From NCBI GenBank assembly GCA_003194525.1, contig NBIV01000157.1, positions 115,715-179,714 on the forward strand: DNA of 64,000 bases, read 5' to 3'. The notes under the pieces were generated by a model. That model did no database searches and was not told the origin of the DNA. It was given only the letters and a program-made list of their open reading frames with translations. Made by a program: the position numbers and the translations under genes. Source of the DNA: Gracilariopsis chorda (Eukaryota > Rhodophyta > Florideophyceae > Gracilariales > Gracilariaceae). Positions 38,188 to 63,998 of this stretch are shown here, in pieces; the first letter of the stretch is position 1, and each line of letters starts with the position of its first letter.

Positions 38188-39020
38188 TGTAGTGCAACGC
38201 CCTCAGGGAGGGATTCTTGGTACTTGAATGCTTTCCCGATATTATCGGTTGTGTAGTGTGTATATGAACTACGCCCCACAATGGTGGATATGGACACGTG
38301 GCACACGGTTTTGGGTCAATTGGCGGTTGGCCACAGTAGTGGATGTTGCCACGAAATGTGGAGTATTTTAGTTGATTTTATTTATTATTTTCACACCCAT
38401 TTCTGGGAAGCTAATACTTAGTGCGACCGCACACTGCCGTCGCACCAGTAAACCTTCTCCAACAAGGGACCCCAACCTGGGAAATTGGCTCTAGTTGTTA
38501 CCGCTTGCGCGCGTGCTCTACTCCTCCTCGGAGAGAAACGCCGTGAACCGCGGGACATCTAACAACCTTGCACATCTAAAGAGGCCCATCCTTTGGAATA
38601 TAATTGTTCCAATCACATTGGTGTTTCGCCCTGTATAGGGAGTCCTGTCCACCGGCATTGCCGTATTCGTTCGTCACTCTCGCGACTCACCCTCGCCCAC
38701 TCTTCCTCCTTTTCCTTTCACTCTTCTCCTGTCCCCCTTTCAGGGTAGTACATCCCGCTACCCGCGGCCCTCGTGTGCGCGTCTGCTCACACACCCCCAC
38801 TTACGTGGAAACATACCTCTACTGAGGATCACACCCCGCTCACGCTGATACCGATTCTTCGCCTTCACCTCCCTGCGAAAGTCGCGACAGGTGTCCCTGG
38901 TCTTACAAACCGGCTTCGCCGTGACACCTCTGGGAGGGCTCTACCCCACTGGGTTCACCTCGTGAGAGGAAGATCCCGAACGTCTTTCGGTGTTTTTCCC
39001 ATTTGGGGCATTGCATCACA
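38188..39020 (+). mobile_element. Solo LTR of the gypsy family found at 50515
   Basis: An 833-bp sequence closely similar to the two LTRs at 50515 and 61250, starting TGTAGTGCAACGCCC and ending GGGGCATTGCATCACA (imperfect inverted ends, TG..CA). It is flanked by a perfect 5-bp duplication GAAGC at 38183-38187 and 39021-39025. No internal sequence remains, so the element was lost by LTR-LTR recombination. It interrupts the MULE coding frame. It differs from the 50515 LTRs at many single sites, so it is not a product of the same insertion. Confidence 0.95.
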
Positions 39021-49429: not shown

Positions 49430-50514
49430 CGTGCTCCGCAAGCTTGACCTACGCCTGTTCAAAATCGAATGGAGAGAACTCTACAAAAACATCTCAGCCG
49501 GCTTCTCTCTGATATGTTTGGCAGCTTTTCGGTGAGCCTTCCGTCTGCGACATGATCTTCTCACGTACGATCTCTGAAATTAGTAGCCTCTTCACTGGAC
49601 CGTTCCAGAAAGGCTTTGTGTATGAGGGACTAATGGCGAATTTCAGTTCGAAGATCGGTCAAACACCAGGAAAGAAGTATCGAGTAATTTGCATGTCTAG
49701 TAGAGTCACCAAACGAATGAACTATTTTCTGCGAATGATCTTACTAACTTGTTCGTAACCTTTACGATATTTAGATTGACAACGCACGCTCTGGTTAGTT
49801 TGTGGGGCGATTTATTGGCGCTACAACCGCCAATACCAAGCTAGATCCGAGTGATAGGAACGAATTTTGGTTGCAGTTCTTAAAATGTGATCTGCAGGAA
49901 GTTAAAGACCCTAAGCGGCGGGCAAACTTGGCTGTAAATACGTTTGCCGAGTTCCTCGGAAGACTAACTGCTTCGGTACCAGATGAAAAGAAGAGGGAAA
50001 ATATGGTGAGAAGATTGAGAACCTTCTTCAGTCCAAGTCTAAGACTGCGGATACGCGTTTGATGCGGCTTATGGTGCGCGTGAGATTGGATTGTTTGTTC
50101 ATGAGTTCAGGTGATACTATTGTTTAGTTTTTTCAGAGATACGTTGGCTCTGCAGTGATCGAGGTGCATGGAACACTTCCAACTGGGCTTCCATTTTGGG
50201 GTTCTCAGATGCAAGGAAGAGTGTTCAGGCGTTCTTGGACGAAGTTTTAGAATACGCGACGATATCTAGAAGTTGAATAAACAATTAAAGTGAAGCAGAA
50301 GGCGAAAGAAGCAAGAACTCAAGGCTATTACGAAGAACAGAAAGAGCTCAAAGAAATTATGAAAGGGAGAAAGGGATCAAACGTCTGTGGTCAATGCTAC
50401 AGCTATTGGATGTGTCCGGGAGACTTTTACCTAATTCGAAGTGCTTTGTCTTGCACGTCTTGGGCTATGGAAGTTGAGGGTGCCACAGCTGGTTCTAAGG
50501 ATGTTGAAGGTGGG
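49430..50514 (+). pseudogene. Unknown MULE gene (copy 2 version), decayed
   Basis: Counterpart of the minus-strand gene at 42193-43279. Open blocks are at 49552-49758 and 49802-50062 (KLDPSDRNEFWLQFLKCDLQ, then NLAVNTFAEFLGRLTASV, and PDEKKRENMVRRLR). A C-terminal block at 50290-50514 (RTQGYYEEQKELKEIMKGRK, then VCGQCYSYWMCPGD) overlaps, on the opposite strand, the 3' end of the transposase frame. It is better preserved than copy 1 in the central part. The gypsy insertion ends it. Confidence 0.45.
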
Positions 50515-51321
50515 TGAAGTGCAACGCCCTCAGGGAGGGATTCTTGGTACTTGATTGTTTTCCCGATATTATCGGTTGTGTAGTGTGTATATGAACTACG
50601 CCCCACTACGGTGGGTATGGACACGTGGGACACGGTTTTGGGTCAATTGGCGGTTGGCCACAGTAGTGGATGTTGCCACGGAATGTGGAGTACTTTAGTT
50701 AATTTTATTTATTATTTTCACAGCCATTTCTGGGAAGCTAGTACTTAGTGCGACGGCGCACTGCCGTCGCACCAGTAAACCTTCCCCAACAAGGGACCCC
50801 AACCTGGGGAATTGGCTCTGAGCTTTACCGCCTCCGCGTGTTCTCAACTCCTCCTTGGAGGGAAGCACCGTAGTGTACGGAAGTTCACCCCCCTTGCACA
50901 TCTAAAGGAGACCCATCATTGGGAGTACTAATTGTTCCAATCATATTGGTGTTTCGCCCTGTATAGGGAGTCCTGTCCACCGGCATCGCCGTATCTACTC
51001 GTCGCTCTCGCGACCCACTCGTCCTTCCTCTTTCCCCTTTTTAGGGTAGCACCTCCCGCTATCCGCGGCCCTCGTGTGCGCATCCGCTCACACACCCCCA
51101 CTTACGTGGAAACATACCTCTACTGAGGACCACACCCCGCTCACGCGGATACCGATTCTTCGCCTTCACCTCCCTGCGCGAGTCGCGACAGGTGTCCCTG
51201 GTCTTACAAACCGGCTTCGCCGTGACACCTCTGGGAGGGCTCTACCCAACTGGGTTCACCTCGTGAGAGGAAGATCCCGGACGTCTTTCGGTGTTTTTCC
51301 CCTTTGGGGCATTGCACCACA
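50515..51321 (+). repeat. 5' LTR of the chromovirus
   Basis: Begins TGAAGTGCAACGCCC and ends GGGGCATTGCACCACA. It contains stem-loops such as CCGAT-ATT-ATCGG (50553-50565), CCCAC-TACG-GTGGG (50602-50615) and a 9-bp stem GTGCGACGG/CCGTCGCAC (50748-50772). A TATTTATTATTTT stretch at about 50707 may be the promoter region. Confidence 0.96.
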
Positions 51322-51324
51322 AAG

Positions 51325-51337
51325 TGGTCTCCCGACC
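51325..51337 (+). other. Primer-binding site
   Basis: TGGTCTCCCGACC starts three bases after the LTR and has the TGG expected opposite a tRNA 3' CCA. I cannot say which tRNA primes. Confidence 0.6.
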
Positions 51338-51426
51338 TAGAATCAGTTTTTGTTTTCCCTCTTACGAGGTTTGTTTTCATTCACCGGAAGTTCCGTGATC
51401 GTTTCCCGTCGTAACGGTATTTTCTC

Positions 51427-53601
51427 ATGTCGAGAAATCCCTCCGACGCGGAGCCAGTGGTTACGCGTAGTCGCTCCCGCGACAACGCGGACTCTTCCGA
51501 AGTTCGGTTCGTACCCCGTATCCCTATACGGACAAGTTCCAGCCGTGCTGGCGCCGCTTCATCGCGGAATGATACCCCCGACCGGGAACCCCGGAACCTC
51601 CTTTTGCCCTCGTTATCACCCCCGCAGGGGAATGCAGCATCGACTCCGGCTGTTGCCGCAGTGCCCCAGGCACCCCGGCCTGCTCCCGCTGTCGCGGCTT
51701 CAAGCCCCCATGGAACGGGCGATAACACCCCCCAGGGGACTTCCCTGGAATCCCAGGTCCGCGCTCTGTGGACCGCCCATGACACCCTTGTAGGGGAACT
51801 AAAATCCCTCCAAGAGGTGGTCTCGGCAACCCCCGTAAAGGAGGTCGCCGAGGAGCTCCGTATTTTACGGTCTGACGTCAACTCCGTGTTGGAGAGTTTG
51901 GGGCAACCCGCCGCCTTCATCGAAGGAGTTGAAGCCCGATTTGATCGGATTGGTGCCCGCCTGGAGACGCTGGAGCAGTTCGTCCTCATGGACAAACCAT
52001 CCCCGGGTGATCCGGTCAACGAGGCATCGCACAACGACCAGCTTGCTGGGAAGAAGAAACGCCGTCATCGACGGAAACACCACCGAAAATATTCGGACTC
52101 CGATTCTTCGACATCGTCGGACTCACCCCGAAACCATTCGGTTAGCTCGAGCTCCTCGGACTCCGACTCGGAGGACGAGAAGCGAGGCTACTCCTCCCGC
52201 TCGAAGCGGTCATCGGCCACTGAAGGTGTGGTCCGAACCCGCCAGAAGGGGAGAAGACACCCCGGTCTCCGGGAATTGAAACCGACAAACCCGGATTACC
52301 GGAAGCTTTTATCATACCGGTACTACCGGCTTGAAGATTCGTCACTTGGACGTACGCCCCGTGGTACGGGAAAAGTGCGAGAATGCATTAAGCGAATGCA
52401 GCTCTCGCTCCGCAACCAGTATTTTACTGGAGAGGACCCAGTCCTAGTACTGGATTTCCTATCCCGCTTTGTAGCGGAGGCCCATATCCTCGGTATGAAT
52501 GAGGGACAAGCCTATTTGGCTTTACCGTATTTCTTACGGGGAGTGGCGGAGGACCAATACACCTCTGTCAGAGGATCTTCTCGCGCCTCCGAGGGAGGAG
52601 TTACTTGCTGGCCGGAGGCTGTGCAGTATCTTCTGCGCTCCTACGCCACCAACACCGCTATTCAGCAGGCTATCCTCGCTTTGCGAGATACACGCCAGCG
52701 TGCTGGAGAGACCGAGACCGATTACTCGGTGCGCCTTAACAAGGCTTTCCACAGATGTGGTAACGTATACCCCGCTGGGGAGCGCAGTACCATGTTCATT
52801 GATGGTCTTGACCCGGCAATCCGGAGTTTAGTTACCCGTTATCGGGAGGACAAGCGAAGGATCACCTACCTCGAGCTGGTCCAACACGCTCGAGCGGAAG
52901 GGGATGCACTTCGTGCAAGAACTCCGAACAATCGGTCTAAATCCGCCAAGGCGTTGTTGCTGGAAAGCGAAGCTTCCTCTCTCCCGCTCACCGCGGATGG
53001 GAACCCTGGACAGGGATTTGATACCGTGCATTTAGCGCAGGGGGATGGTGTGTCGATACCCACCAGTGAGTTACCGTTAACGACGGAGATGACCCATGAT
53101 ACGGGAACAGAAGATCCCGTTCTATACGGTGGTAACAGTCGGGTTCAACCCCAACGACTCCCGTTTTCAAACGGTCAATCCCGTTATCAACGGCCTGGAT
53201 GGACTGACACCCGCCCTGCGGTTCGCTTCTCCGATACTCGGAATAATCATCCGCGTGTCGCGGTGCTGGCTCTCATTTGCCACCTGTGCTATGCCCATGG
53301 CCATACCTCTCCTCAGTGTATTTGTTCACTGAAGGATATGGCCAAGGTGGTGGCAAATTATGAGGCCCTCACTCCAGAGGAGAAACGTTCCGTCCCGACG
53401 GCTTCCTACCTCCGTGCTAAAACGGACTTTTCTCACGCCCTACCACAGACCCCGCGTGCGCGGCCAGCTTCATACACCCCGATTCGGGAGATCACGCAAC
53501 CATCCGTTGCAACCCCCGCTTATGCGGATAGAAACCCCCGTCAACGGGATGAAGCACTCGTTGTCGAGGAAACCAACCCACCGCCGAAGGCGGAAAACTA
53601 A
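51427..53601 (+). CDS. Gag polyprotein (capsid and CCHC nucleocapsid)
   Basis: An intact frame of 724 residues. Residues 1-110 are Ser/Pro/Arg-rich. A short helical segment follows (about 120-190), then a Ser/Asp-rich basic linker with KKKRRHRRKHHRK (about 210). The Retrotrans_gag capsid domain is at about 310-495 (with YFTGEDPVLVLDFLSRFVAE, later QQAILALRDTRQRAGETETD and MFIDGLDPAIRSLV). A zinc knuckle CHLCYAHGHTSPQC (C-x2-C-x4-H-x4-C) sits at about 618-631. It ends in TAA at 53599, while the pol frame (-1) is open from 53553, so pol would need a -1 shift within the 48-base overlap, which includes GGAAAAC. Confidence 0.95.
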   Translation: MSRNPSDAEPVVTRSRSRDNADSSEVRFVPRIPIRTSSSRAGAASSRNDTPDREPRNLLLPSLSPPQGNAASTPAVAAVPQAPRPAPAVAASSPHGTGDNTPQGTSLESQVRALWTAHDTLVGELKSLQEVVSATPVKEVAEELRILRSDVNSVLESLGQPAAFIEGVEARFDRIGARLETLEQFVLMDKPSPGDPVNEASHNDQLAGKKKRRHRRKHHRKYSDSDSSTSSDSPRNHSVSSSSSDSDSEDEKRGYSSRSKRSSATEGVVRTRQKGRRHPGLRELKPTNPDYRKLLSYRYYRLEDSSLGRTPRGTGKVRECIKRMQLSLRNQYFTGEDPVLVLDFLSRFVAEAHILGMNEGQAYLALPYFLRGVAEDQYTSVRGSSRASEGGVTCWPEAVQYLLRSYATNTAIQQAILALRDTRQRAGETETDYSVRLNKAFHRCGNVYPAGERSTMFIDGLDPAIRSLVTRYREDKRRITYLELVQHARAEGDALRARTPNNRSKSAKALLLESEASSLPLTADGNPGQGFDTVHLAQGDGVSIPTSELPLTTEMTHDTGTEDPVLYGGNSRVQPQRLPFSNGQSRYQRPGWTDTRPAVRFSDTRNNHPRVAVLALICHLCYAHGHTSPQCICSLKDMAKVVANYEALTPEEKRSVPTASYLRAKTDFSHALPQTPRARPASYTPIREITQPSVATPAYADRNPRQRDEALVVEETNPPPKAEN

Positions 53602-56561
53602 CTGAGGGAGTCTCCCCTTTGGGAGAGGCGTCCTCAGACAAGAGGCTGTTGGCGCCCGAGGCGTCCCTGCCTCGCTCCCCGGTGAAAATCCTCTCGAGGA
53701 AAGACACCGCTGACGCGGACTCTGCGCACCTCGGTGTGTTGCGTCGCCCGTGGATACGGAGTAAAAATCCCCGGATTCCCGGTAGAGTCTTGATCATGGC
53801 CAAGCGCAACTATAAGGTCTATGCCGACCTTGGCCTTGATCCCCAGTTTATGGTGAGGTTTCTCACCGTCCTGGATACAGGTGCAGGCCCCAACTTCGTT
53901 GTGGAATCATTGTTACCCCCGCTTGTGCGGTCTCGTATCCGCTCTGACGCGGTCCCCGACATTTCGGATGCGAATAACAACCCGTTACAAACGGTGGGCA
54001 CGGTGGACCTCGTCGTGAGACTTGGTACCTCTGTGGTGAAGTTGGACTTCATCGTTTGCCGTTCATTGGCAGCACCAGTTATACTGGGATGTGATTACTG
54101 CGACAGATTTGTCGACGCAATCAGGCCCCGCCTCAGGCGTGTAGAACTTGACGACGGATCGTCGGTTCCGATTGTTCGCCGCCCGCTAAAGCGGTCCTCT
54201 CGGAAACAAGTTCCGCTCCCTGCTGCGCAGGAACCACCGCCCGCGTCCCGCGAGTCCACCAAGCTCCGCGTCGCTGCCTCGGTTTCTATACCGGCTGAGT
54301 CCCAAGTCTGGGTACAGGTAAATTCCCGTCAACACGGTCTTCGGGTTATACAACCCCTCGCCTCGTTGTACGAGAAATCCCAGCTGGCGCTGGCTAATGG
54401 AATTGTCTCCATTTCCCCGGATGTTCCTTTCCGGATATTGGTTGCCAACCTTGGCAAACACCCCCAGTATCTGGTCAAACACCAAGTAATTGGGAGTGTA
54501 ACCCCCCATCCTATGGGAATGCTGCCAACGAAGATGACAGCCGCCGATGTACTCGGAGTTACCACCTCTTCTGAGGAGTTCACCCCGCCGTCCGAAGACG
54601 TCAAGTCTAAGGAGGGGGAGGAAACCGCTACTTCAGCGTCGAACATACCGAGTAACTCGGAATTGCGAACCACACCTGTTCCACAGGACAATGCTCCATC
54701 GAGCAATGACCGGATTGATCCGGAAAAAGCACTTGAAGCGCTGGACTTCAGCCACGTGCCAGAGTCGCACCGCGACAAACTCCGTACTATGTTACGGGAA
54801 TTCACCACAATGTGGGATGGCTCGCTTGGCGAGATTGATGCAACGGAACACCGGATCGATTTAATCCCCGGTGCGCGACCGGTTGCACAACCCCCTTACA
54901 GGGCAGTTCCGAAAGCTCGGGAAGAGGAGCAGTCCCAGGTGGACAAGATGCTCCGCGCAGGTGTGATTGAGCCCGCTCAATCGCCCTGGGCATCCCCAGT
55001 TGTACTGGCTTTAAAGGCTGACGGAACCTGGAGGTTCTGTGTCGACTACCGCCGGCTCAATGCCGTGACTGTTAGGGACACGTACCCCATCCCTCGTATG
55101 GACGAGTGCATTGACTCACTTGGAGATGCCACCGTGTTCACGGCCCTTGATGCCAATTGGGGATATTGGCAAGTACCTGTCAGACAGGAGGATCGCGACA
55201 AAACCGCATTCACCTGCCATGCAGGAACGTACCGCTTCAAGCGGATGCCATTTGGGTTAACCAACGCCCCCGCCACCTTTCAGCGTGCAGTAGATATTCT
55301 ACTCAACCGCTTTAAGTGGCGGAGTTGTCTGGTCTACCTTGATGATATTATCATCTTCTCCAACTCGTTGGACGACCATCTCACTCACGTCCGAGACGTG
55401 CTGACCGTACTCCGCGATGCGGGAATTACCCTCAAGTTGAGGAAATGCGAGTTTTTCACAGATACTGTGAATTATCTGGGTCACATTATCCGTCCTGGAC
55501 GGTTAGCGATCGAGAAAGCTCGAGTCAAATCCCTCGTTGAGGCGAAAGAACCCCGTACTCAAACGGAACTGCGCTCCTTTCTGGGGCTGTTCAACGTCTA
55601 TCGACGGTTTATCCCGAACTTTTCGGATACTGCAGCGCCCCTGAACGCGTTGTTGCGAAAGGGGAACCCCCCAAAACTGGGAACATTTACGCCCGAGCAA
55701 TCGGAAGCCTTTAACTCCTTGAAGGAGGCTGTCACATCAGCACCAATCCTACATCTCCCAAAACTTGGGTTGCCATACTCCGTAGATACGGACTCGAGCG
55801 ACTACCAAGTCGGGTGTGCTCTTTTTCAAACCACCCCCGAGGGGGAAGGACACCCAATTGGTTATTGGTCGCGCTCGCTCAATGTCCATGAGCGGAACTA
55901 CTCCGTATCGGAGAAAGAGTGCCTCGCCGTCGTATGGGCGATGACCACTCTGCGCCCCTACCTTATGGGAGTCCATTTCACCGTGTACACGGATCATTCC
56001 TCACTGAGGTGGTTAATGAATATCTCCGACCCGTCGGGACGCCTCATGCGCTGGAGACTCCGCCTCGCGGAATATGACTTCCAAGTCATTTATAAAAAGG
56101 GCGCGCAGAACACCCAAGCCGACGCTCTGTCGCGTTTACCCACAAGTGGGGAGGCACTCCCAACGGAGGATGATGAAGTCCCATGTTTCATGGCAATGGA
56201 CCCGGATGATCCGGAATGGGCCGTCGAGGCTGAGCCAGAAAACTGGGACGAAGATGCTGACTTCGACTACCTACTCGCATCGCGAGATGATTCTGAGAAA
56301 CCCATACCGGGAAATTATGTACCGGTTGAGACCGAGGAAATGATCCGAGAACAATTCGGGGACCCCTTCTGTACAAGGATACGTGCACGCCTCAACGGCG
56401 GAGAGAACCTCCCCTTCGGGGTGAACGACATTGGTTACCTCGTGAGGACCGTCGAGGCTACCCCACAAGTTGTGGTACCGCACACGCTACAGAAGCGGAT
56501 ATTGCACCTTTCGCATTACCCGAAACTCGGGGACACTCCGGTGGGAGGAAGCTTTATCTAA
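53553..56561 (+). CDS. Pol part 1: protease, reverse transcriptase, RNase H, start of integrase
   Basis: A frame open from 53553 (no ATG needed if made by frameshift). The aspartic protease has TVLDTGAGPNFV near 53870. RT has FCVDYRRLNAVT (about 55040), FKRMPFGLTNAPATFQRA and the YLDDIIIFS active site (about 55340). RNase H has VDTDSSDYQVGCALFQ, then SVSEKECLAVVWA and YTDHSSLRWLM, with AQNTQADALSRLP. The frame ends at 56561 just inside the integrase HHCC zinc domain (LHLSHYPKLGDTP) because of a one-base shift near 56545. Copies the RNA into DNA in virus-like particles. Confidence 0.96.
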   Translation, partial: STRCRGNQPTAEGGKLTEGVSPLGEASSDKRLLAPEASLPRSPVKILSRKDTADADSAHLGVLRRPWIRSKNPRIPGRVLIMAKRNYKVYADLGLDPQFMVRFLTVLDTGAGPNFVVESLLPPLVRSRIRSDAVPDISDANNNPLQTVGTVDLVVRLGTSVVKLDFIVCRSLAAPVILGCDYCDRFVDAIRPRLRRVELDDGSSVPIVRRPLKRSSRKQVPLPAAQEPPPASRESTKLRVAASVSIPAESQVWVQVNSRQHGLRVIQPLASLYEKSQLALANGIVSISPDVPFRILVANLGKHPQYLVKHQVIGSVTPHPMGMLPTKMTAADVLGVTTSSEEFTPPSEDVKSKEGEETATSASNIPSNSELRTTPVPQDNAPSSNDRIDPEKALEALDFSHVPESHRDKLRTMLREFTTMWDGSLGEIDATEHRIDLIPGARPVAQPPYRAVPKAREEEQSQVDKMLRAGVIEPAQSPWASPVVLALKADGTWRFCVDYRRLNAVTVRDTYPIPRMDECIDSLGDATVFTALDANWGYWQVPVRQEDRDKTAFTCHAGTYRFKRMPFGLTNAPATFQRAVDILLNRFKWRSCLVYLDDIIIFSNSLDDHLTHVRDVLTVLRDAGITLKLRKCEFFTDTVNYLGHIIRPGRLAIEKARVKSLVEAKEPRTQTELRSFLGLFNVYRRFIPNFSDTAAPLNALLRKGNPPKLGTFTPEQSEAFNSLKEAVTSAPILHLPKLGLPYSVDTDSSDYQVGCALFQTTPEGEGHPIGYWSRSLNVHERNYSVSEKECLAVVWAMTTLRPYLMGVHFTVYTDHSSLRWLMNISDPSGRLMRWRLRLAEYDFQVIYKKGAQNTQADALSRLPTSGEALPTEDDEVPCFMAMDPDDPEWAVEAEPENWDEDADFDYLLASRDDSEKPIPGNYVPVETEEMIREQFGDPFCTRIRARLNGGENLPFGVNDIGYLVRTVEATPQVVVPHTLQKRILHLSHYPKLGDTPVGGSFI

Positions 56562-56562
56562 C

Positions 56563-58438
56563 CCTTCGCAGGGATTTCTACTGGCCCGCCATGGCGGTTG
56601 ATTGCTACGCTACGGTGCGGTTTTGCACGCAATGCGCGAAGAACCGGGTCAAACTCCGGAAGCACTCCAAACGGATGAAGCTATTCCCCACCAGGGCGCC
56701 GCTCGAGTTTGTCGCAATTGACATTCTCGGACCATTGCTCTCTACCAGGAGAGGCAACAAGTTCCTACTCGTTATTACGGACAGGTTCTCGAAATTAGTT
56801 CGGACAGTCCCTCTAAAGAGGATTACCGCCTACACGGTCGCTCACGCCTTTGTGCGGCATTGGGTGTTTGCCTACGGACCTCCTTTGGAGCTACTTTCCG
56901 ACAACGGGAAACAGTTCGCATCGCGATTTTTCCAGGACGTCTGTCGGATACTGGACGTGAAGAATCTCTTCACGACCACGTATCATCCCCAGTCTAATGG
57001 GCAGGTCGAGCGTTTCAACCGGACAATGCTCGCAGCTCTCCGTGCTTACACGGCTGACCACCCCAGGACTTGGGATATCTACACGGATGCCGTGACCTTT
57101 GCGTACAATACGCAGGTACACCGGACTACCGGAATATCCCCTTTCGAGTTGGTCCTTTCACGGACACCCCCGCCAATGGCGTTGGAATCCCAACCTACGT
57201 TGGACGCGTTCCCTTCTGTGAAGGATTACCGCCAGAAGTGGAAAGCATGGCTGACCAAGCTGGTACCCGCAGCGCGGAAGGCGATGGACCACGCCCAAGC
57301 CGTCTACAAACGGAATTTCGATGCTCGCTTGCGAGGAGGCAAACCGGAACAGATCAACTCCGGGGACTTCGTATTCGTCCGCAAGGAGTACTACAACCCT
57401 GAAAGGGAGAAGCACCATAAGCTCTCGCCTGTGGCGGATGGTCCTTTCAAGGTTATCTCCGTCACGACGGACACAGTGGTTGTGGAAATGGGTGACGCGC
57501 ATGAGCGGTTATCTCGCGATCGCATCGTGCTAGCTCCGCCACCCTCGACTGAGGCTGCACCAGCTACGCTGGACCCTACGCTGGAATATGGCTCTGCATC
57601 CGATACATCGGTGGTGAGACGGCCTACCGTGTTACCACACCCCTCCCGGGGACTCTCAGACGTACCGACCCTGTCGGACTCACCGGCTCAGCCGGGTAAT
57701 TCGGGCCTCTCTGTGCCCGCCCCTATGGCGCGAGTCTACACCCGCCAGGCGGGGCATGTTATCCCTTATGCCGCCGCTCCGTCTCAGGAGGGGGAGGAGA
57801 ACGCTCGTTTTCGAGGAATGAGATCGCCGTCGCAACGGGAAACACGCCGTACCATACGGACAACTGACCGTGGAGCACGGAGTATCTCACGCGACACTAA
57901 TCCCCCGTCCTCGGGCAGCGCTGTGCAACAGGAACCAGACGCGCAGGTCCCGCAAAGGCGGCAAATACACCGTGTTACACGGGAAGCTGAAACGCAGCTA
58001 CCGCACACCCCTGTCAGGGAAGGATCCCCGATACGGGAGTACGGCGACAATCGCCCTCAATCCCCTGAGCAGGGAGATGCCTCAAAGCCGCCATTGGCGG
58101 AAGTCCCGCGGAAGCGGTTCAATCAGGTCGCTCAGACCCGCGCCCCGCGGAGAAGAGGCGCCCAGATACACCAGCGCCGCTGGGAAATACCCACACCCCT
58201 ATCGGGGAAAAGGGTAGCCAAGCCGCATCCGAAGCTTCAGGCCCTGGCGCGCAGCGCTCGGAAACGCTCCCCGTCGCAGACGGAATCGAAGCCCCCGTTC
58301 CGGGGAATAATTTGCGCCAACCACCGCAACGCTGCGGCGAAGAACCGAGGAACTCGGGAAAAACGCGCGCCATCGCACGCTCGAAACCGGTCGTACCGGA
58401 CGCTGCTCCTCCTCATGGAGACGGTGCACCGCACTTAG
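56563..58438 (+). pseudogene. Pol part 2: integrase (separated by one-base shift)
   Basis: Continues the integrase in the -1 frame: DFYWPAMAVDCYATVRFC completes the HHCC zinc domain (CTQC). The core then has FVAIDILGPL (Asp), ELLSDNGKQFASRFF (Asp) and TYHPQSNGQVERFNRTM (Glu), with IYTDAVTFAYNTQVHRTTG and the GPFKVI segment of the C-terminal domain. From about residue 310 the protein is a long Pro/Arg/Ser-rich tail. The integrase joins the cDNA to the chromosome. The shift at its start has no obvious slippery site, so I treat it as a disabling mutation. Confidence 0.9.
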
Positions 58439-59208
58439 CGGCCAGGCCCCTGAAAAGGGTGTCATCGGCACCTGCCCGGCACCCCCCAAAGGGGAATTTT
58501 GACCAAAATACCGGTGTACCGGAGTTAGCCTTAGGCAACCCCCCAGTAGCCGGGGACACCACGGCGTCGCCGGAACGTACGGTGCAGAGCGCTCGTGCGC
58601 CTGGCAGGGAGGCGGTTTGCCATCCAACCACCGTGTCGCACGGGACCCCCCAGGGGATCGTGGAAACGCCGATTCCGCAGGAGCGGTCATCTTCCCGCAA
58701 ACTCGCGGTTCGTGAGTTCAACCGCGAATGCGGAGTTCAAGTCCCCCGCCGGTTGGCGGTTCGCCTGGCCTACCGTGAAGACGGGAACAACGACACCCCA
58801 ATGGGGAATGACTTGCCGGGGAAAACCGTGACACCACATACCCTCTTGAGGGATATTTTCCCGCATGAGCAGCGGCCACTAGGACAGCGCACGGCAACGT
58901 CGGAGTTATCGCCGAACACCCTGCTAAGGGACATTATACCGCACCGCGGACAACCCTCGCAAGGGAGTACAACCACCACCCGGCACGCCCGGCAGGTCTA
59001 CGAACGAGAGTTCGTAGTAGACCGACTTGTCGGACACACCTGGGACCAGGATGGTATTCTACAATACCGCGTCCGCTGGTACGGGTACGACCCCAGTGGG
59101 GATACGTGGGAGCCAATTGAACATCTCCCACGGTCGCAGATCGTGCGATACCACCGTCAAACGGGAACTGCAGCCCCAGCCACGCTGGTTAATGCCCAAG
59201 TTGGGTAA
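58312..59208 (+). CDS. Pol C-terminal extension with chromodomain
   Basis: A 298-residue frame overlapping the end of the integrase tail, again -1 relative to it. The first 230 residues are low complexity. The chromodomain is at about 235-285: YEREFVVDRLVGH, then ILQYRVRWYGYDPSGDTWEP and HLPRSQIVRYHRQ, with the aromatic cage residues (Y/F at the start, W and Y of RWYGY, W of DTWEP) present. Chromodomains at the end of integrase direct chromoviruses to histone-marked chromatin. It is probably translated as the end of pol in an intact copy. Confidence 0.85.
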   Translation: MRQPPQRCGEEPRNSGKTRAIARSKPVVPDAAPPHGDGAPHLAARPLKRVSSAPARHPPKGNFDQNTGVPELALGNPPVAGDTTASPERTVQSARAPGREAVCHPTTVSHGTPQGIVETPIPQERSSSRKLAVREFNRECGVQVPRRLAVRLAYREDGNNDTPMGNDLPGKTVTPHTLLRDIFPHEQRPLGQRTATSELSPNTLLRDIIPHRGQPSQGSTTTTRHARQVYEREFVVDRLVGHTWDQDGILQYRVRWYGYDPSGDTWEPIEHLPRSQIVRYHRQTGTAAPATLVNAQVG

Positions 59209-59401
59209 CGTTGCCGCGCGAGCGGAGGGCAATGAGAAAGGATAGCAAGGGAAAGTCCGCCTAAGACGGGGAATGCTAATTGGAAATCACCGTTCTAAAC
59301 GGGAAAGTTTATTCAGGGGAGCAGCTAGCTCCTCACGATACTACACTACACTAACTGGCATAGCCAGGGAAAGAATACCAGGAAAACTGGACAAAAGGAG
59401 C

Positions 59402-61193
59402 TCACTCTTCGCCGTTGCCCGGGGCGTAACCCCCAGCAAGGCGGTAGGCCAACGCGTCCGCCATGGTGGTGACATCCCCCGATACCTTGGCAGCGCTAAG
59501 ACCGGCACCCCGGAGGAAACGTGCGATGATTTCGTTTTCATTCGCCGTCACCCCGCTGGGGATAGAAGGTCCGGCACTTGCCGTTGAAGGGTCAGCAGCC
59601 GGCTCGGCCGGAGATACCCCCTCTGGGAAAGCTTCCGCGCTAGCGCCGGTTTCCTCTACGTCCATCTCCCCGGGTTCTTCCGGTTCGTTATCGACCATTG
59701 GGTCATCCCCGCCGTATGCGTGGTAGTAGTCGTCAGAATCGACGTACCCCACCGGGTGGTCTTCCGGCACGTGCCGGGGCGCATCGCGAAGTTCGCGCGC
59801 CTCCTCGGAGGAAATTTCCCGGAACTCCCAGGGGTCGAAGTAGATAAAATCACCCGCAAGGGCGGTGTTTCTACCCAGTCCCGGGCCACCGGTGTTACCG
59901 CTGCCGCCATCCAGACGAACCGCTTTGCTCCAGCGGGACCTCACTCCAGCTAACGCTGTCGATGTACCCAAGTAATTGGAGGACCTCTTCATTGTTGGCC
60001 TGGCCCCCAAGGGGGATGCGAAGATCCAGGTTTCGGATCGCTGCCCGCACACGCGGTTGAAGGAACCAGAGACGATACTGGTCGTACGCCTCGTTGAGGA
60101 TATAAGCCGCATTGCGGGCCGCCCACTCCGTAACCACTACGGACCACAACCCCGACCGGGGATCCTGCATGAGCAGCGAACCGAGGTACGTAAGTACCGG
60201 CGGAAGTTCTACGTAGCACCCCCGGCAGGCTTCATGGAAGCGCCACCACTCGGGGAGTGCTACGTACCGACCCAGTCGGTGAGGCGGCGCAATCCGCTCT
60301 ATCTCCACGTTCTGATACGGGATGAAATACCCGAATCGGGATCGCCAAACGCCGCTCATAGCGGATGAAGTTCTGGAGGAAGTTTGACCGGTATTGCCGG
60401 GAAAGATACCTGAACTCCGCCCGAATGATCGGTCGCTCCCAACAAAGGGCCTCTTGCCGCGCTGCGGGGAAATTCCTCCAAGCGAGGGTCTCGAGGCGGG
60501 ACAGGTTCTCGCCGTATCCAATCTCCCCGCGAGTGCGGAAGTGGCTAATGTCGAAGCCAAACTCCGGTGGGACCGGTACATCGAACGGAGCCCGGCTCTG
60601 CCGTTGGTACGCCATGCGCGTCAGCGCGGTCTGCGCCGCAGCGACGGTCTCGCCCGAATTCCTTCGGAGGTGGTGACGCGGAATCGCGATCCGGTGACGC
60701 CAATCCCACGATGTGGTAACTGCTCTGGGGCAGATCCCCCGGAAGGGTGTCTGAGCCATCCGCATAAGCGGTGACCAATCCCTCATTGAGGACGGCGACC
60801 GGGTGAAACCACGGGGCAAGGCGCAGGCGCGACGCGTGATTCCGATTCATCGGGTTGAGCCCCACCAGGGTGTTGTAAGTTGGCCAGTTGGACACCGGAG
60901 TGGTCCCGGAGGACACCACCGAAGGTGGTAGTGCGAAGGGATGGTCGGCTTCAGCAGCCGTATTTCCCGGTTGTACCGGATTTCGATCGCCCTGAGGCAG
61001 GGGAACTGAACCGGAAACCGGTGGTGTATCGCCCGAGAAGTCTCGGAGGTTGGCTGTGGTTGTTGATGTTGTTGTCGTCGTTCATTTCTCCCTTGTCGAG
61101 GGTGGCTGTTGTTGTCGTTTGTGCACTTGAGGACTCTGGTGCAGAGGAATTTACCGGAGAACCGGAGACAAAGCACTTGCTTTTATCACCCAT
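59402..61193 (-). pseudogene. Antisense gene between pol and 3' LTR, about 600 codons, unknown
   Basis: Read right to left from an ATG at 61193 (MGDKSKCFVSGSPVNSSAPE), protein-like sequence continues to a stop at 59402 through several frames. It has an Asn/Gln/Ser-rich start, NPMNRNHASRLRLAPWFHPV and VLNEGLVTAYADGSDTL (about 60865-60740). Then come PPEFGFDISHFRTRGEIGYG and SRLETLAWRNFPAARQEALC (about 60570-60420), YVALPEWWRFHEACRGCYVE with WAARNAAYILNEAYDQYRLW (about 60265-60050), and an acidic Pro/Glu tail ending GNGEE. Trp/Tyr-rich balanced composition and no competing sense gene support a real protein. I recognise no domain, signal or membrane segment. Frame changes lie near 60975, 60870, 60700, 60355 and 59935. 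It might be a capsid-like or regulatory protein made from an antisense transcript. Confidence 0.55.
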
Positions 61194-61239
61194 TTTTCGT
61201 CTGGGAATCCTCCGCGTCCGCGGTCGTTTTCCCGTCTTA

Positions 61240-61249
61240 GGGGGGGATA
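61240..61249 (+). other. Polypurine tract
   Basis: GGGGGGGATA directly before the 3' LTR start (TGAAGTGCAAC), the usual primer site for plus-strand DNA synthesis. Confidence 0.8.
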
Positions 61250-62059
61250 TGAAGTGCAACGCCCTCAGGAGGGATTCTTGGTACTTGATTGTTTTCCCGA
61301 TATTATCGGTTGTGTAGTGTGTATATGAAATACGCCCCACTACGGTGGGTATGGACACGTGGGACACGGTTTTTGGGTCAATTGGCGGTTGGCCACAGTA
61401 GTGGATGTTGCCACGGAATGTGGAGTACTTTAGTTAATTTTATTTATTATTTTCACAGCCATTTCTGGGAAGCTAGTACTTAGTGCGACGGCGCACTGCC
61501 GTCGCACCAGTAAACCTTCCCCAACAAGGGACCCCAACCTGGGGAATTGGCTCTGAGCTTTACCGCCTCCGCGTGTTCTCAACTCCTCCTTGGAGGGAAG
61601 CACCGTAGTGTACGGAAGTTCACCCCCCTTGCACATCTAAAGGAGACCCATCATTGGGAGTACTAATTGTTCCAATCATATTTGGTGTTTCGCCCTGTAT
61701 AGGGAGTCCTGTCCACCGGCATCGCCGTATCTACTCGTCGCTCTCGCGACCCACTCGTCCTTCCTCTTTCCCCTTTTTAGGGTAGCACCTCCCGCTATCC
61801 GCGGCCCTCGTGTGCGCATCCGCTCACACACCCCCACTTACGTGGAAACATACCTCTACTGAGGACCACACCCCGCTCACGCGGATACCGATTCTTCGCC
61901 TTCACCTCCCTGCGCGAGTCGCGACAGGTGTCCCTGGTCTTACAAACCGGCTTCGCCGTGACACCTCTGGGAGGGCCTCTACCCAACTGGGTTCACCTCG
62001 TGAGAGGAAGATCCCGGACGTCTTTCGGTGTTTTTTCCCCTTTGGGGCATTGCACCACA
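61250..62059 (+). repeat. 3' LTR of the chromovirus
   Basis: 810 bp, nearly identical to the 5' LTR by eye. It ends GCACCACA and is followed by GTGCG. Confidence 0.96.
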
Positions 62060-63998
62060 GTGCGGTGACAGTCTTTCTGAGACGCATCCTGGAATGAATG
62101 TGGGCTTGTCCTCACTCGCTTTCTCGTGCGCTCCAAGGAGCTTTTCTTTTCTCCCGTTCTTGCCCTGTGGCGTCCATTGTTTGGCGGACGGATCCCTGAT
62201 GAACTGAAATCTTTTGTAGAAGAAGATGGATGCAGTAAAGTGACAGTATTCTCTGTGTTTCTTCCGCGTGTTCTGTTAATGAAGCCAGCCTTGTTTTAAA
62301 GGTACGTATTAGCTTCGAAGTGTGTCACTTTTCCTTGAGAAATGTCCGTGATGGAATCCCTTAAAAGACGTAGAACACCACTCACCGCAACACGTCCAAT
62401 TCCAGTAGCTTGTTCGATGTAAAGCATCGTAGAGGTTTTTTTCCTTCCATGTACGTATTGTACCCATCTACTTCCGAGTCTTCTCTACTGGTTCTAAAGT
62501 ATATCTGAGTCAATGGGGATAAACTCTTTCTCCGTCGACTCATCAAAACGGCCGTAGTCGGTAATCCATCTCCTCGATTTTTGAAGTATCGGGTCTTTCA
62601 CCTGAGTTTCGCCAAGTATGGGACTGTCATAGCAGAAGTATCTTTTCTTCAGTATGTAGAGAAAAGCGCTTCAAGAAGTATGAAGAATTCTAGTATGTTT
62701 CGTAGTTCAGGGAACCGCAGACGTTCTTCCTGATAAACCACGGCACATCGAACCATGTGACGACAAGCAAAGCCAACGGACCAGGGCTGCCCACAGGAAC
62801 AGACACCAATAAACTCTGCCTTAACGTCATACCCCGTATACCTTTTTGAGTATTGTACAACAGTCTTCTGTTATGAGCGTTCTTCATCAACCGACGCATT
62901 CCGGCTCTGACTCAGATGGCTTCCCCATTTCAACTTAAAACGAGCTACAGGTCCAATTGCTGGGGTTGAACTACTATCCAGGTTCTAATTGCTTCCAGAC
63001 ACGCTTCCTGTGAATAATCCACAAACTCTGTGCTGAAAAGAATGTAATTCTTCGAGGGCTTAAAGCTCAAATCTACGAAGTGCGCCAAGGTAGTTCGTGT
63101 ACTCAGCCAGCAGGCTGTCTACAACTTCTACAAGTAGAAAGTACTCAAGCTCTCTTGTCTTCCGATATCTCCCACTTTGAGAAGATAAGGTTCGTACAAG
63201 CTCCAAGTTCCGGATATCAACCCGTTCTTGGGATATACGCCGAACCTCCAAAGGAACCTTGCACAAGGGAATCTTCTTCGATATAATGATCTTCTTGTAT
63301 GCAGAGTTAGAAGATTCGGGTGTAGCCAGTTCCTTGGAACATGTAACGGGTAGGCATAGCCGCATTTCGGAAGCAAGCACCAGAATATGCGGCTTGTAGT
63401 GGTACAAGTACTTATACCACACAGGGAGACGATCCTCAAAAGCATCAAAGTACTTGGATTCTAGCATTCTTCTCCTTTCGAAAAACGTTTCCGACGTATA
63501 TGACTTTCTGAGGTTGAACAGGTCATTCTTCATATCGTGCATCCACTCCATCTTACCAATCTTTCTACACCAATTGGCCACATTCTCCTTCTGATTCTCG
63601 TTCAGATGCCATTCGTCGAGGTTTATATAGGACGAATTGAACACCTTCTCAGCTGCATTTATACAAGCAGTGTTCTGGTCCATCACTACCATCGCCGGTG
63701 AGACGGCGACTATAGACTTGAAGTAGGACAGAATTTCGTACGAAGTCCTCTTCTGTTTCGGAGCACATGTACCCCATGAAAAATGTAAAAATGTCAACAC
63801 ATGACCATCATTGGCTCTTCCATTATTGGTGACCAGAGGTAAACCGTATCTATTGGCTCTGGCTTTACAATCAATAGATACCCCCTGAACAATGCCGAAC
63901 TTCTGATAGTCTTCCATCCACTCTCGAAACGACCAACAAGCGTACTTCATCCTACCCGAATCATCCGCAGCGAAGAATCCCTTATTCCCTGCATCTTC
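62060..63998 (-). pseudogene. MULE copy 2 transposase, partial
   Basis: Right to left: the block at 63950-63060 is open and holds SIDCKARANRYGLPLVTNNG, MVVMDQNTACINAAEKVFN (Asp) and DEWHLNENQKENVANWC, with Tyr at the two places where copy 1 has TAA. A shift near 63330 is bridged within the block, and the frame is lost at 63060. The SWIM zinc finger remains readable at about 62840-62730. The TGA found at 41424 in copy 1 is also present (about 62600). The N-terminal part and the ULP1 region lie beyond the window edge. Confidence 0.88.

Follow-up and report, generated by a model that had tools for sequence, protein, structure and literature searches.

We analysed a 64,000-nucleotide stretch of the red alga Gracilariopsis chorda (contig NBIV01000157.1, positions 115,715 to 179,714 of the forward strand; hereafter the window), which belongs to a 91.3-Mb genome of 1,081 contigs. 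The window holds a Ty3/Gypsy chromovirus bounded by a pair of long terminal repeats (LTRs) and encoding reverse transcriptase (RT), RNase H, an integrase (IN) core and a chromodomain (Table 1), and this element is filled, through LTRs and coding sequence alike, with short perfect hairpins. Between the LTRs the domains follow one another on one strand in the order PF00078, PF17917, PF17919 and then PF00665, with RT/RNase H before integrase, and the chromodomain lies after the integrase, as in a chromovirus.

The original prediction, made from the sequence of the window alone, had listed twelve perfect hairpins in a stretch of RT and had extended the same texture to gag, to the region before the 3' LTR and to the LTRs. 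All twelve exist, with stems of 5-7 bp; nine lie exactly where they had been placed, whereas three can be extended by one pair (55359-55372, 55430-55442 and 55455-55471), and a thirteenth, at 55289-55303, had been missed. The example from gag, CCGTAT-CCCT-ATACGG, was found at 51516-51531, and the 9-bp stem in the LTR at 50748-50772. Stems of at least 5 bp with loops of 1-6 nt were counted in 1-kb bins, each compared with 40 dinucleotide shuffles: the 12 bins between 50 and 62 kb held 237 hairpins, 2.43-5.46 times the shuffled expectation (half of the first bin lies outside the element); none of the other 52 bins exceeded 1.90, and these pooled to 270 vs 271.6 expected (ratio 0.99), so the rest of the window is without excess, as had been judged by eye for parts of it. 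The edges of the hairpin-rich zone are the edges of the LTR element. All ten segments tested (LTRs, leader, gag, protease, RT-RNase H, IN, IN tail, chromodomain open reading frame (ORF) and 3' part) were enriched 3.3-8 times, including the gag ORF (55 hairpins vs 11.8 expected) and 59209-61267 (43 vs 12.2). In a codon-preserving control, the observed counts were reached in none of 300 synonymous-codon shuffles for each of three ORFs; the RT/RNase H ORF held 81 hairpins with a 5-bp stem and 3-nt loop (5/3) or a 4-bp stem and 4-nt loop (4/4), vs a mean of ~20 in these shuffles. The dinucleotide and synonymous-codon shuffles together rule out an artefact of composition or coding. Mirror repeats with loops of 1-6 nt stood at 0.7-1.5 times expectation in the element, DNA palindromes were rejected with loop 0 under expectation (8 vs 12.2, 0.66 times), and none of 4227 Rfam families matched 50515-62059 at the gathering score. 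These results confirm that the hairpin observation is real, and stronger than first noted.

Table 1 Features of the hairpin-bearing element (window coordinates).
Feature	Position	Strand	Basis
Whole Ty3/Gypsy chromovirus with hairpin array	50515..62059	+	LTR pair, domains, hairpin counts
5' LTR	50515..51321	+	ends read from sequence
gag ORF	51427..53601	+	basic stretch and one CCHC knuckle (residues 618-631)
ORF with RT and RNase H	53619..56561	+	domain search
RT stretch of the original prediction	55024..55502	+	13 perfect hairpins, stem >=5, loop 1-5
ORF with integrase core	56591..58438	+	domain search
ORF with chromodomain	58312..59208	+	PF00385, E 5.5e-11
Region between chromodomain ORF and 3' LTR	59209..61249	.	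hairpin-rich
3' LTR	61250..62059	+	ends read from sequence

The two LTRs are nearly identical: a single substitution separates them, together with five length differences of one base each, most of which fall in short runs and may stem from the assembly; the flanks GTGGG (50510-50514) and GTGCG (62060-62064) resemble an imperfect 5-bp target duplication. The pol frame of the window copy is broken after 56561, other copies have longer open frames, and close copies are numerous (at least 119 matches with 96-100% RT protein identity). The closest named proteins for both RT and gag are from Agarophyton chilense, and PF03732 is present in distant relatives of the element's gag. Two overlapping antisense ORFs (59402-60112, minus strand, 236 aa; 59895-60581, minus strand, 228 aa) occupy the stretch from the chromodomain ORF to the 3' LTR; the former has three metagenome protein relatives at 65, 42 and 67% identity, which makes an antisense gene in this region possible.

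We then characterized the geometry of the motif; most counts used 50534-62046, the exact ends of the element having been determined later. With arms of at least 5 bp, loops of 1-4 nt were found at 3.6-7.7 times expectation, loops of 5 and 6 nt at 1.8 and 1.6 times, and loops of 7 nt or more at 0.4-1.7 times; hairpins with loop 1 or loop 2 are 3- or 4-nt loops with a closable inner pair. By exact class, the excess lay in 5/3 (89 vs 11.3 expected) and 4/4 (136 vs 36.9) hairpins, with stem 6/loop 3 at 8 vs 3.0 and 7-bp stems at expectation (4 vs 3.6); three 8-bp and two 10-bp stems are also present. The two outer pairs are mostly CC/GG (C fraction 0.82 and 0.74 in 99 hairpins with loop 3 and stem at least 5), and the strict motifs CCnnn-nnn-nnnGG and CCnn-nnnn-nnGG occur 65 and 100 times (n=165) vs 1.6 and 7.3 in 10 shuffles; 14 of them, along with four further 5/3 or 4/4 hairpins, fall in the 5' LTR part 50534-51309. 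Among 5/3 hairpins a CC stem base reached 41 times expectation, and GG...CC 1.2 times. The class originally described (stem 5-6, loop 1-5) is thus in genuine excess, but it is wider than the actual CC/GG-based motif of 12-13 nt.

Counting 5/3, 4/4 and 4/3 hairpins, ~190 non-overlapping strict hairpins are found in 10,735 nt, or ~1 per 57 nt. Outward extension was seen in 2/58 strict hairpins of the 5/3 and 4/79 of the 4/4 kind (together 6/137), where by our arithmetic flank base frequencies predict about a quarter; the 4/3 class was extended in 13/51. Gaps of less than 5 nt between hairpins are rare (4 vs 18 expected), and spacing is otherwise near random. The first base 3' of the stem is A in 46% of 320 strict hairpins from five sequences (two of them, L026 and L052, representing one family), a strand-asymmetric preference, and the loop sequence is nearly free, with the strongest bias at the third base of four-base loops, where A makes up 43% (193 hairpins).

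The pairing rule was derived from six pooled sequences: the window element, L026 and L052 (same family), L053, L054 and the integrase part of L003. At the third pair, which was Watson-Crick in 328 hairpins, G-C, A-T, T-A and C-G stood at 23.6, 16.6, 15.4 and 8.1 times expectation; G.T plus T.G amounted to 9 vs 9.1 expected, A.C to 13 vs 9.1, and each mismatch type to 0.4-2.0 times. At the fourth pair, which adjoins the loop in the 4/4 kind, G.T and T.G were found at 1.0 and 1.5 times, C.A at 4.3 times (23 vs 5.3) and A.C at 2.6 times, and at the fifth and outermost pair many mismatch kinds were enriched, as neighbouring loop sizes and shorter stems predict. At equal predicted RNA stability (-6 to -2 kcal/mol), 5/3 hairpins with Watson-Crick pairs only were enriched 4.2-10.1 times and those with one G.U 0.9-2.0 times, and DNA stability parameters gave a similar picture. 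The 13-mers with 0, 1, 2 and 3 inner G-C pairs stood at 13, 37, 39 and 23 times expectation, and the 12-mers with 0, 1 and 2 at 7.5, 16 and 11 times. These results indicate that the inner pairs are Watson-Crick without G.U, and that A-T is about as good as G-C. An excess of A.C over G.T mismatches as a pointer to the minus strand was dropped because this excess sits mainly at the outer end and the loop-adjacent pair, where an unpaired A is favoured; a plus-strand mutation bias behind the asymmetry was also rejected (private changes G>A 20, C>T 23).

Comparison with other elements of the same genome revealed enrichment in related families, and little or none in more distant ones. Every RT fragment from 16 further loci (76-82% protein identity; families F2-F4) exceeded expectation more than twofold, and in longer pieces of these families 15/15 bins of 1.3 kb were enriched; three gypsy fragments (36-40%) and a Copia fragment showed no enrichment. 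In L015:5001-10000, a gypsy from a neighbouring lineage (RT 56%), enrichment was weak (41 vs 24.5), perhaps an early or fading state of the hairpin trait; the still more distant L010 gypsy showed 19 vs 18.7, with 5/3 raised (9 vs 3.7) and 4/4 lowered (10 vs 15.0). In 20 random genome pieces of 10 kb (80 bins of 2.5 kb), counts of the two strict motifs were at most 1 and at most 3 in 75/80 bins, and the five motif-rich bins lay in L025 and L026, both holding related elements; a genome-wide texture is ruled out by these counts. Within the 75 low bins, L016:1-2500 had a 4/4 hairpin excess (20 vs 7.6) with one strict motif only, and the last bin of L027 (three strict motifs) contains 220 bp of related LTR. 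The 50 kb preceding the element held 5 + 20 strict motifs vs ~1.4 + 7.5 expected; 10 of these 25 lie at 38200-38969 and match the LTR hairpins in order, this stretch being evidently another LTR copy of the same or a near family, perhaps a solo one.

Beyond the host, a scan of genome contigs returned three loci, of which only L051 was both close and hairpin-rich. Filed under a bacterial metagenome-assembled genome (MAG; Robiginitomaculum sp.), it shares 73% (RT) and 36% (gag) identity with the window element and is eukaryotic chromovirus sequence, probably a contaminant of that MAG and probably the only DNA of another red alga covered here; the other matches in the MAG are distant (29-37%). Its hairpins (5/3 27 vs ~4.7; 4/4 32 vs ~17) are without CC preference, TC being commonest among the 5/3 kind (7/27), and its loops tend to begin with G or A and to end with C. 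The remaining two MAG loci (38-42%) had no hairpin array, and scans of viral contigs found no relative. Stem bases (CC/TC/AC/other) were 137/6/7/96 in F1, the family of the window element, 52/8/7/40 in F2, 16/20/17/55 in F3, 40/22/0/55 in F4 and 3/8/6/42 in L051, and F1 and F3 differed strongly (137 CC/246 vs 16/108; chi-square P ~2e-16). The five hairpin-rich rows of a 17-row RT tree group together with one label change, at weak support (67/37). Gag has a single CCHC knuckle in the window element and in F2, F3, F4 and L051; its variable residues differ among them, and the same pattern found none in the L015 piece. The F1 copies L003, L004 and L006 are ~96-99% identical to the window up to integrase and ~75% beyond it (measured for L003), and are recombinants between subfamilies. 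F1-F4 all come from one genome and so represent few independent lineages.

We investigated the evolution of the hairpins at several depths. Between the window element and L026 (66-69% identity, four blocks), 16/89 window hairpins occur at the same columns, several via double changes. Compensatory changes, which the original prediction had named as a test, were found in part: double-changed stem pairs were restored to Watson-Crick in 44/77 cells vs 39.5% of 1445 background cells (pairwise counts, which are non-independent), and when the window hairpins were mapped onto 17 RT sequences, both sides had changed in 74 cells vs 36.2 in shuffles and 10-30 in slid controls, but pairs with both-side change (17 vs 17.6) and further pair types (44 vs 53.6) did not rise above shuffles. 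In the cleanest test of constraint, in which one sequence defined the hairpins and variation was counted among the others, stratified by data set, the stem/outside rate ratio at short divergence was 0.55 for strict hairpins (bootstrap 0.32-0.83) and 0.68 for all hairpins (0.50-0.85). Strict ratios were 0.40 in the non-coding LTR, 0.33 in F1 before integrase, 0.72 in F1 integrase and 0.32 in F4, and unstratified, one-reference and majority-rule versions pointed in the same direction, several being non-significant singly. Private changes in 25 distinct F1 copies, mostly post-insertion, affected 24/252 stem columns vs 63/659 in the surroundings (35/315 vs 49/593 when hairpins were defined by the union of copies); since they spare neither, the constraint, where present, acts in the replicating lineage, not in resident DNA. 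Each of 10 hairpins variable within F2, F3 or F4 is one base from a non-hairpin allele. It seems that the replicating lineage keeps its hairpins, that they decay after insertion, and that sites turn over at steady density.

We tentatively favour, at a little short of an even chance, a reading drawn from these sequence patterns in which the hairpins are dispersed, individually replaceable recognition sites for an element-encoded protein, likeliest Gag. What is read would be a shape: a 4-5 bp Watson-Crick stem with a near-free 3-4-nt loop and, in F1, a CC/GG base, seldom extended outward and seldom followed by the next site within 5 nt. Such a protein would be encoded by the element, because co-resident families differ in stem-base preference and one host factor would not suffice. 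Gag, through its nucleocapsid part, would bind the genome many times during particle assembly and is preferred because hundreds of copies per particle would suit ~190 sites per RNA, a fit that is suggestive only; the Ty3 capsid is described, in the part of the source drawn on here, with 540 capsid (CA) proteins and two RNAs assumed (PMC6525542). The bound molecule may be genomic RNA or single-stranded complementary DNA (cDNA): the absence of G.U favours DNA or a reader with strict geometric demands, and the plus-strand A after the stem favours the sense strand.

Several observations weigh against recognition by Gag. In our judgement, RNA hairpins bound by proteins do not usually lack G.U, and no strong common loop motif of the known packaging-signal type was found. 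The constraint is modest and partly on small counts: strict ratios were 1.78 in F2 and 1.21 in F3 (each on ~one changed column), stems were not more conserved between families (0.335 vs 0.297 for strict, 0.313 vs 0.301 for all hairpins), and the union-of-copies definition of hairpin columns, which leans the opposite way, gave an odds ratio (OR) of 0.58 (P 0.036) for strict and 0.84 (P 0.36) for all hairpins. The flanks are not tuned either, with predicted hairpin probabilities, real vs shuffled, of 0.457/0.435 (F1), 0.351/0.398 (F2) and 0.430/0.432 (F4). Selection on genomic RNA structure, one of the two causes originally proposed, is partly supported by short-divergence constraint and compensation, but not in the form of plain stability or tuned flanks.

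The other proposed cause, template switching by reverse transcriptase or a host polymerase that copies one arm into the other with CC/GG as return microhomology, would fit Watson-Crick pairing without G.U and without clear inner preference for G-C over A-T, and comparable processes are described, in the excerpts cited, for rRNA hairpins (PMC8794818) and coding inverted repeats (PMC8604942). Its expected traces stayed at background. Pooled over seven overlapping family comparisons, with non-hairpin windows as background, changes confined to one arm were found in 23/161 changed hairpins with 2-6 arm differences: 16/38 = 0.42 vs 0.39 at two differences, 7/71 = 0.10 vs 0.14 at three, 0/30 vs 0.05 at four, 0/19 vs 0.01 at five and 0/3 at six. 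Loop inversion was seen in 1/42 conserved hairpins with at least two loop changes, stems evolve more slowly than their surroundings at short divergence rather than in concert, and avoidance of longer stems and close spacing is not predicted; we regard this explanation as doubtful. General selection on the structure or stability of the genomic RNA, through compaction or through resistance to nucleases or silencing and with no specific recognition, draws on the excess of compensatory changes and on an enrichment that drops for hairpins of weak predicted stability. Mere stability fails, however, because one-G.U hairpins of equal stability and the thermodynamically equal GG...CC base are hardly enriched, outward extension is avoided and stem bases are family-specific; 7-bp stems at expectation and the untuned flanks point the same way, and we consider it distinctly unlikely.

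A further proposal is that the hairpins act in single-stranded cDNA within the particle (protection, compaction, strand transfer), bound by nucleocapsid or another element protein. The whole length is covered, LTRs included, and the third pair shows no clear tolerance of either G.T or A.C (9 and 13 vs 9.1), as DNA pairing predicts; yet C.A is enriched at the fourth pair, loop-adjacent in 4/4, the sense-strand A after the stem is without evident meaning in minus-strand DNA, and no clear enrichment was apparent by eye for loops known to be stable in DNA, so that we judge it unlikely. If the hairpins served to engage or evade a host factor (a protein of silencing, chromatin or RNA processing), that factor would be expected to see co-resident families alike, whereas these differ in stem-base preference; resident copies decay at stems as elsewhere, random genome pieces are without the motif, and this explanation appears very unlikely.

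Extended to the clade of chromoviruses that carries the hairpins, recognition by Gag would mean that the stem base spells the family, and that each family's own Gag reads its RNA or single-stranded cDNA and so sorts and condenses its own genomes, a generalization that we consider possible but would sooner doubt than assert. The family code would then consist of hundreds of mini-hairpins, with density kept while single sites turn over. For most clades it is, to our knowledge, still unsettled how LTR retrotransposons discriminate their own RNA from cellular RNA and from the RNA of sister families; in RNA viruses, the case for dispersed packaging signals usually depends, in our judgement, on weak statistics. 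Here, the strict motif stands at ~13 to 41 times expectation, is visible by eye and is shared by at least four families of this genome, whose preferences differ; a genome-wide recognition code would therefore be directly testable. If true, a second message for recognising own genetic material is overlaid on the protein code; the related elements have their hairpins mostly in different positions. A mutational cause would imply a copying process with a narrow length and an anchor of specific sequence, which would be equally unexpected.

In open-access full texts, with subscription journals mostly outside this coverage, we found no account of such hairpins in LTR retrotransposons or red algae; that the hairpin array is new is, beyond that literature, our own judgement. 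Among known systems, as described in the excerpts cited, Ty3, Ty1 and HIV-1 genomic RNAs likewise carry structured regions along a related retroelement RNA, but as a mosaic of structured and dynamic regions with no mention there of a uniform repeated hairpin (PMC11381356). Sirevirus palindromic repeated motifs are also LTR-retrotransposon palindromes, with a CGG-CCG signature, but are fixed palindromes located in LTRs and other non-coding regions of Copia elements (PMC2829016), whereas here all segments, coding and non-coding, bear hairpins and the stem interior is free. Nematomorpha mitochondrial palindromes are similarly perfect inverted repeats in protein genes, gained and lost between species, yet reach 284 bp and have no fixed small geometry in the passages cited (PMC6649704), in contrast to the 4-5 bp stems and preferred base observed here. 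Template-switch or quasi-palindrome hairpins share perfect pairing and gain and loss at many places (PMC8794818), but our hairpins lack an excess of one-arm multi-base changes or inverted loops and have a narrow stem-length range and a preferred base. Dispersed packaging signals of single-stranded RNA viruses (MS2 and others, and the hepatitis B virus (HBV) pregenome; PMC6281560) are alike in that many stem-loops of one kind, individually variable round a common feature, are spread across the genome. In the cases excerpted, their common motif lies mainly in the loop (MS2, PMC6281560; HBV, PMC7612645), whereas this element, an LTR retrotransposon, has near-free loops, a preferred stem base, Watson-Crick pairing without G.U and a density of ~1 hairpin per 57 nt.

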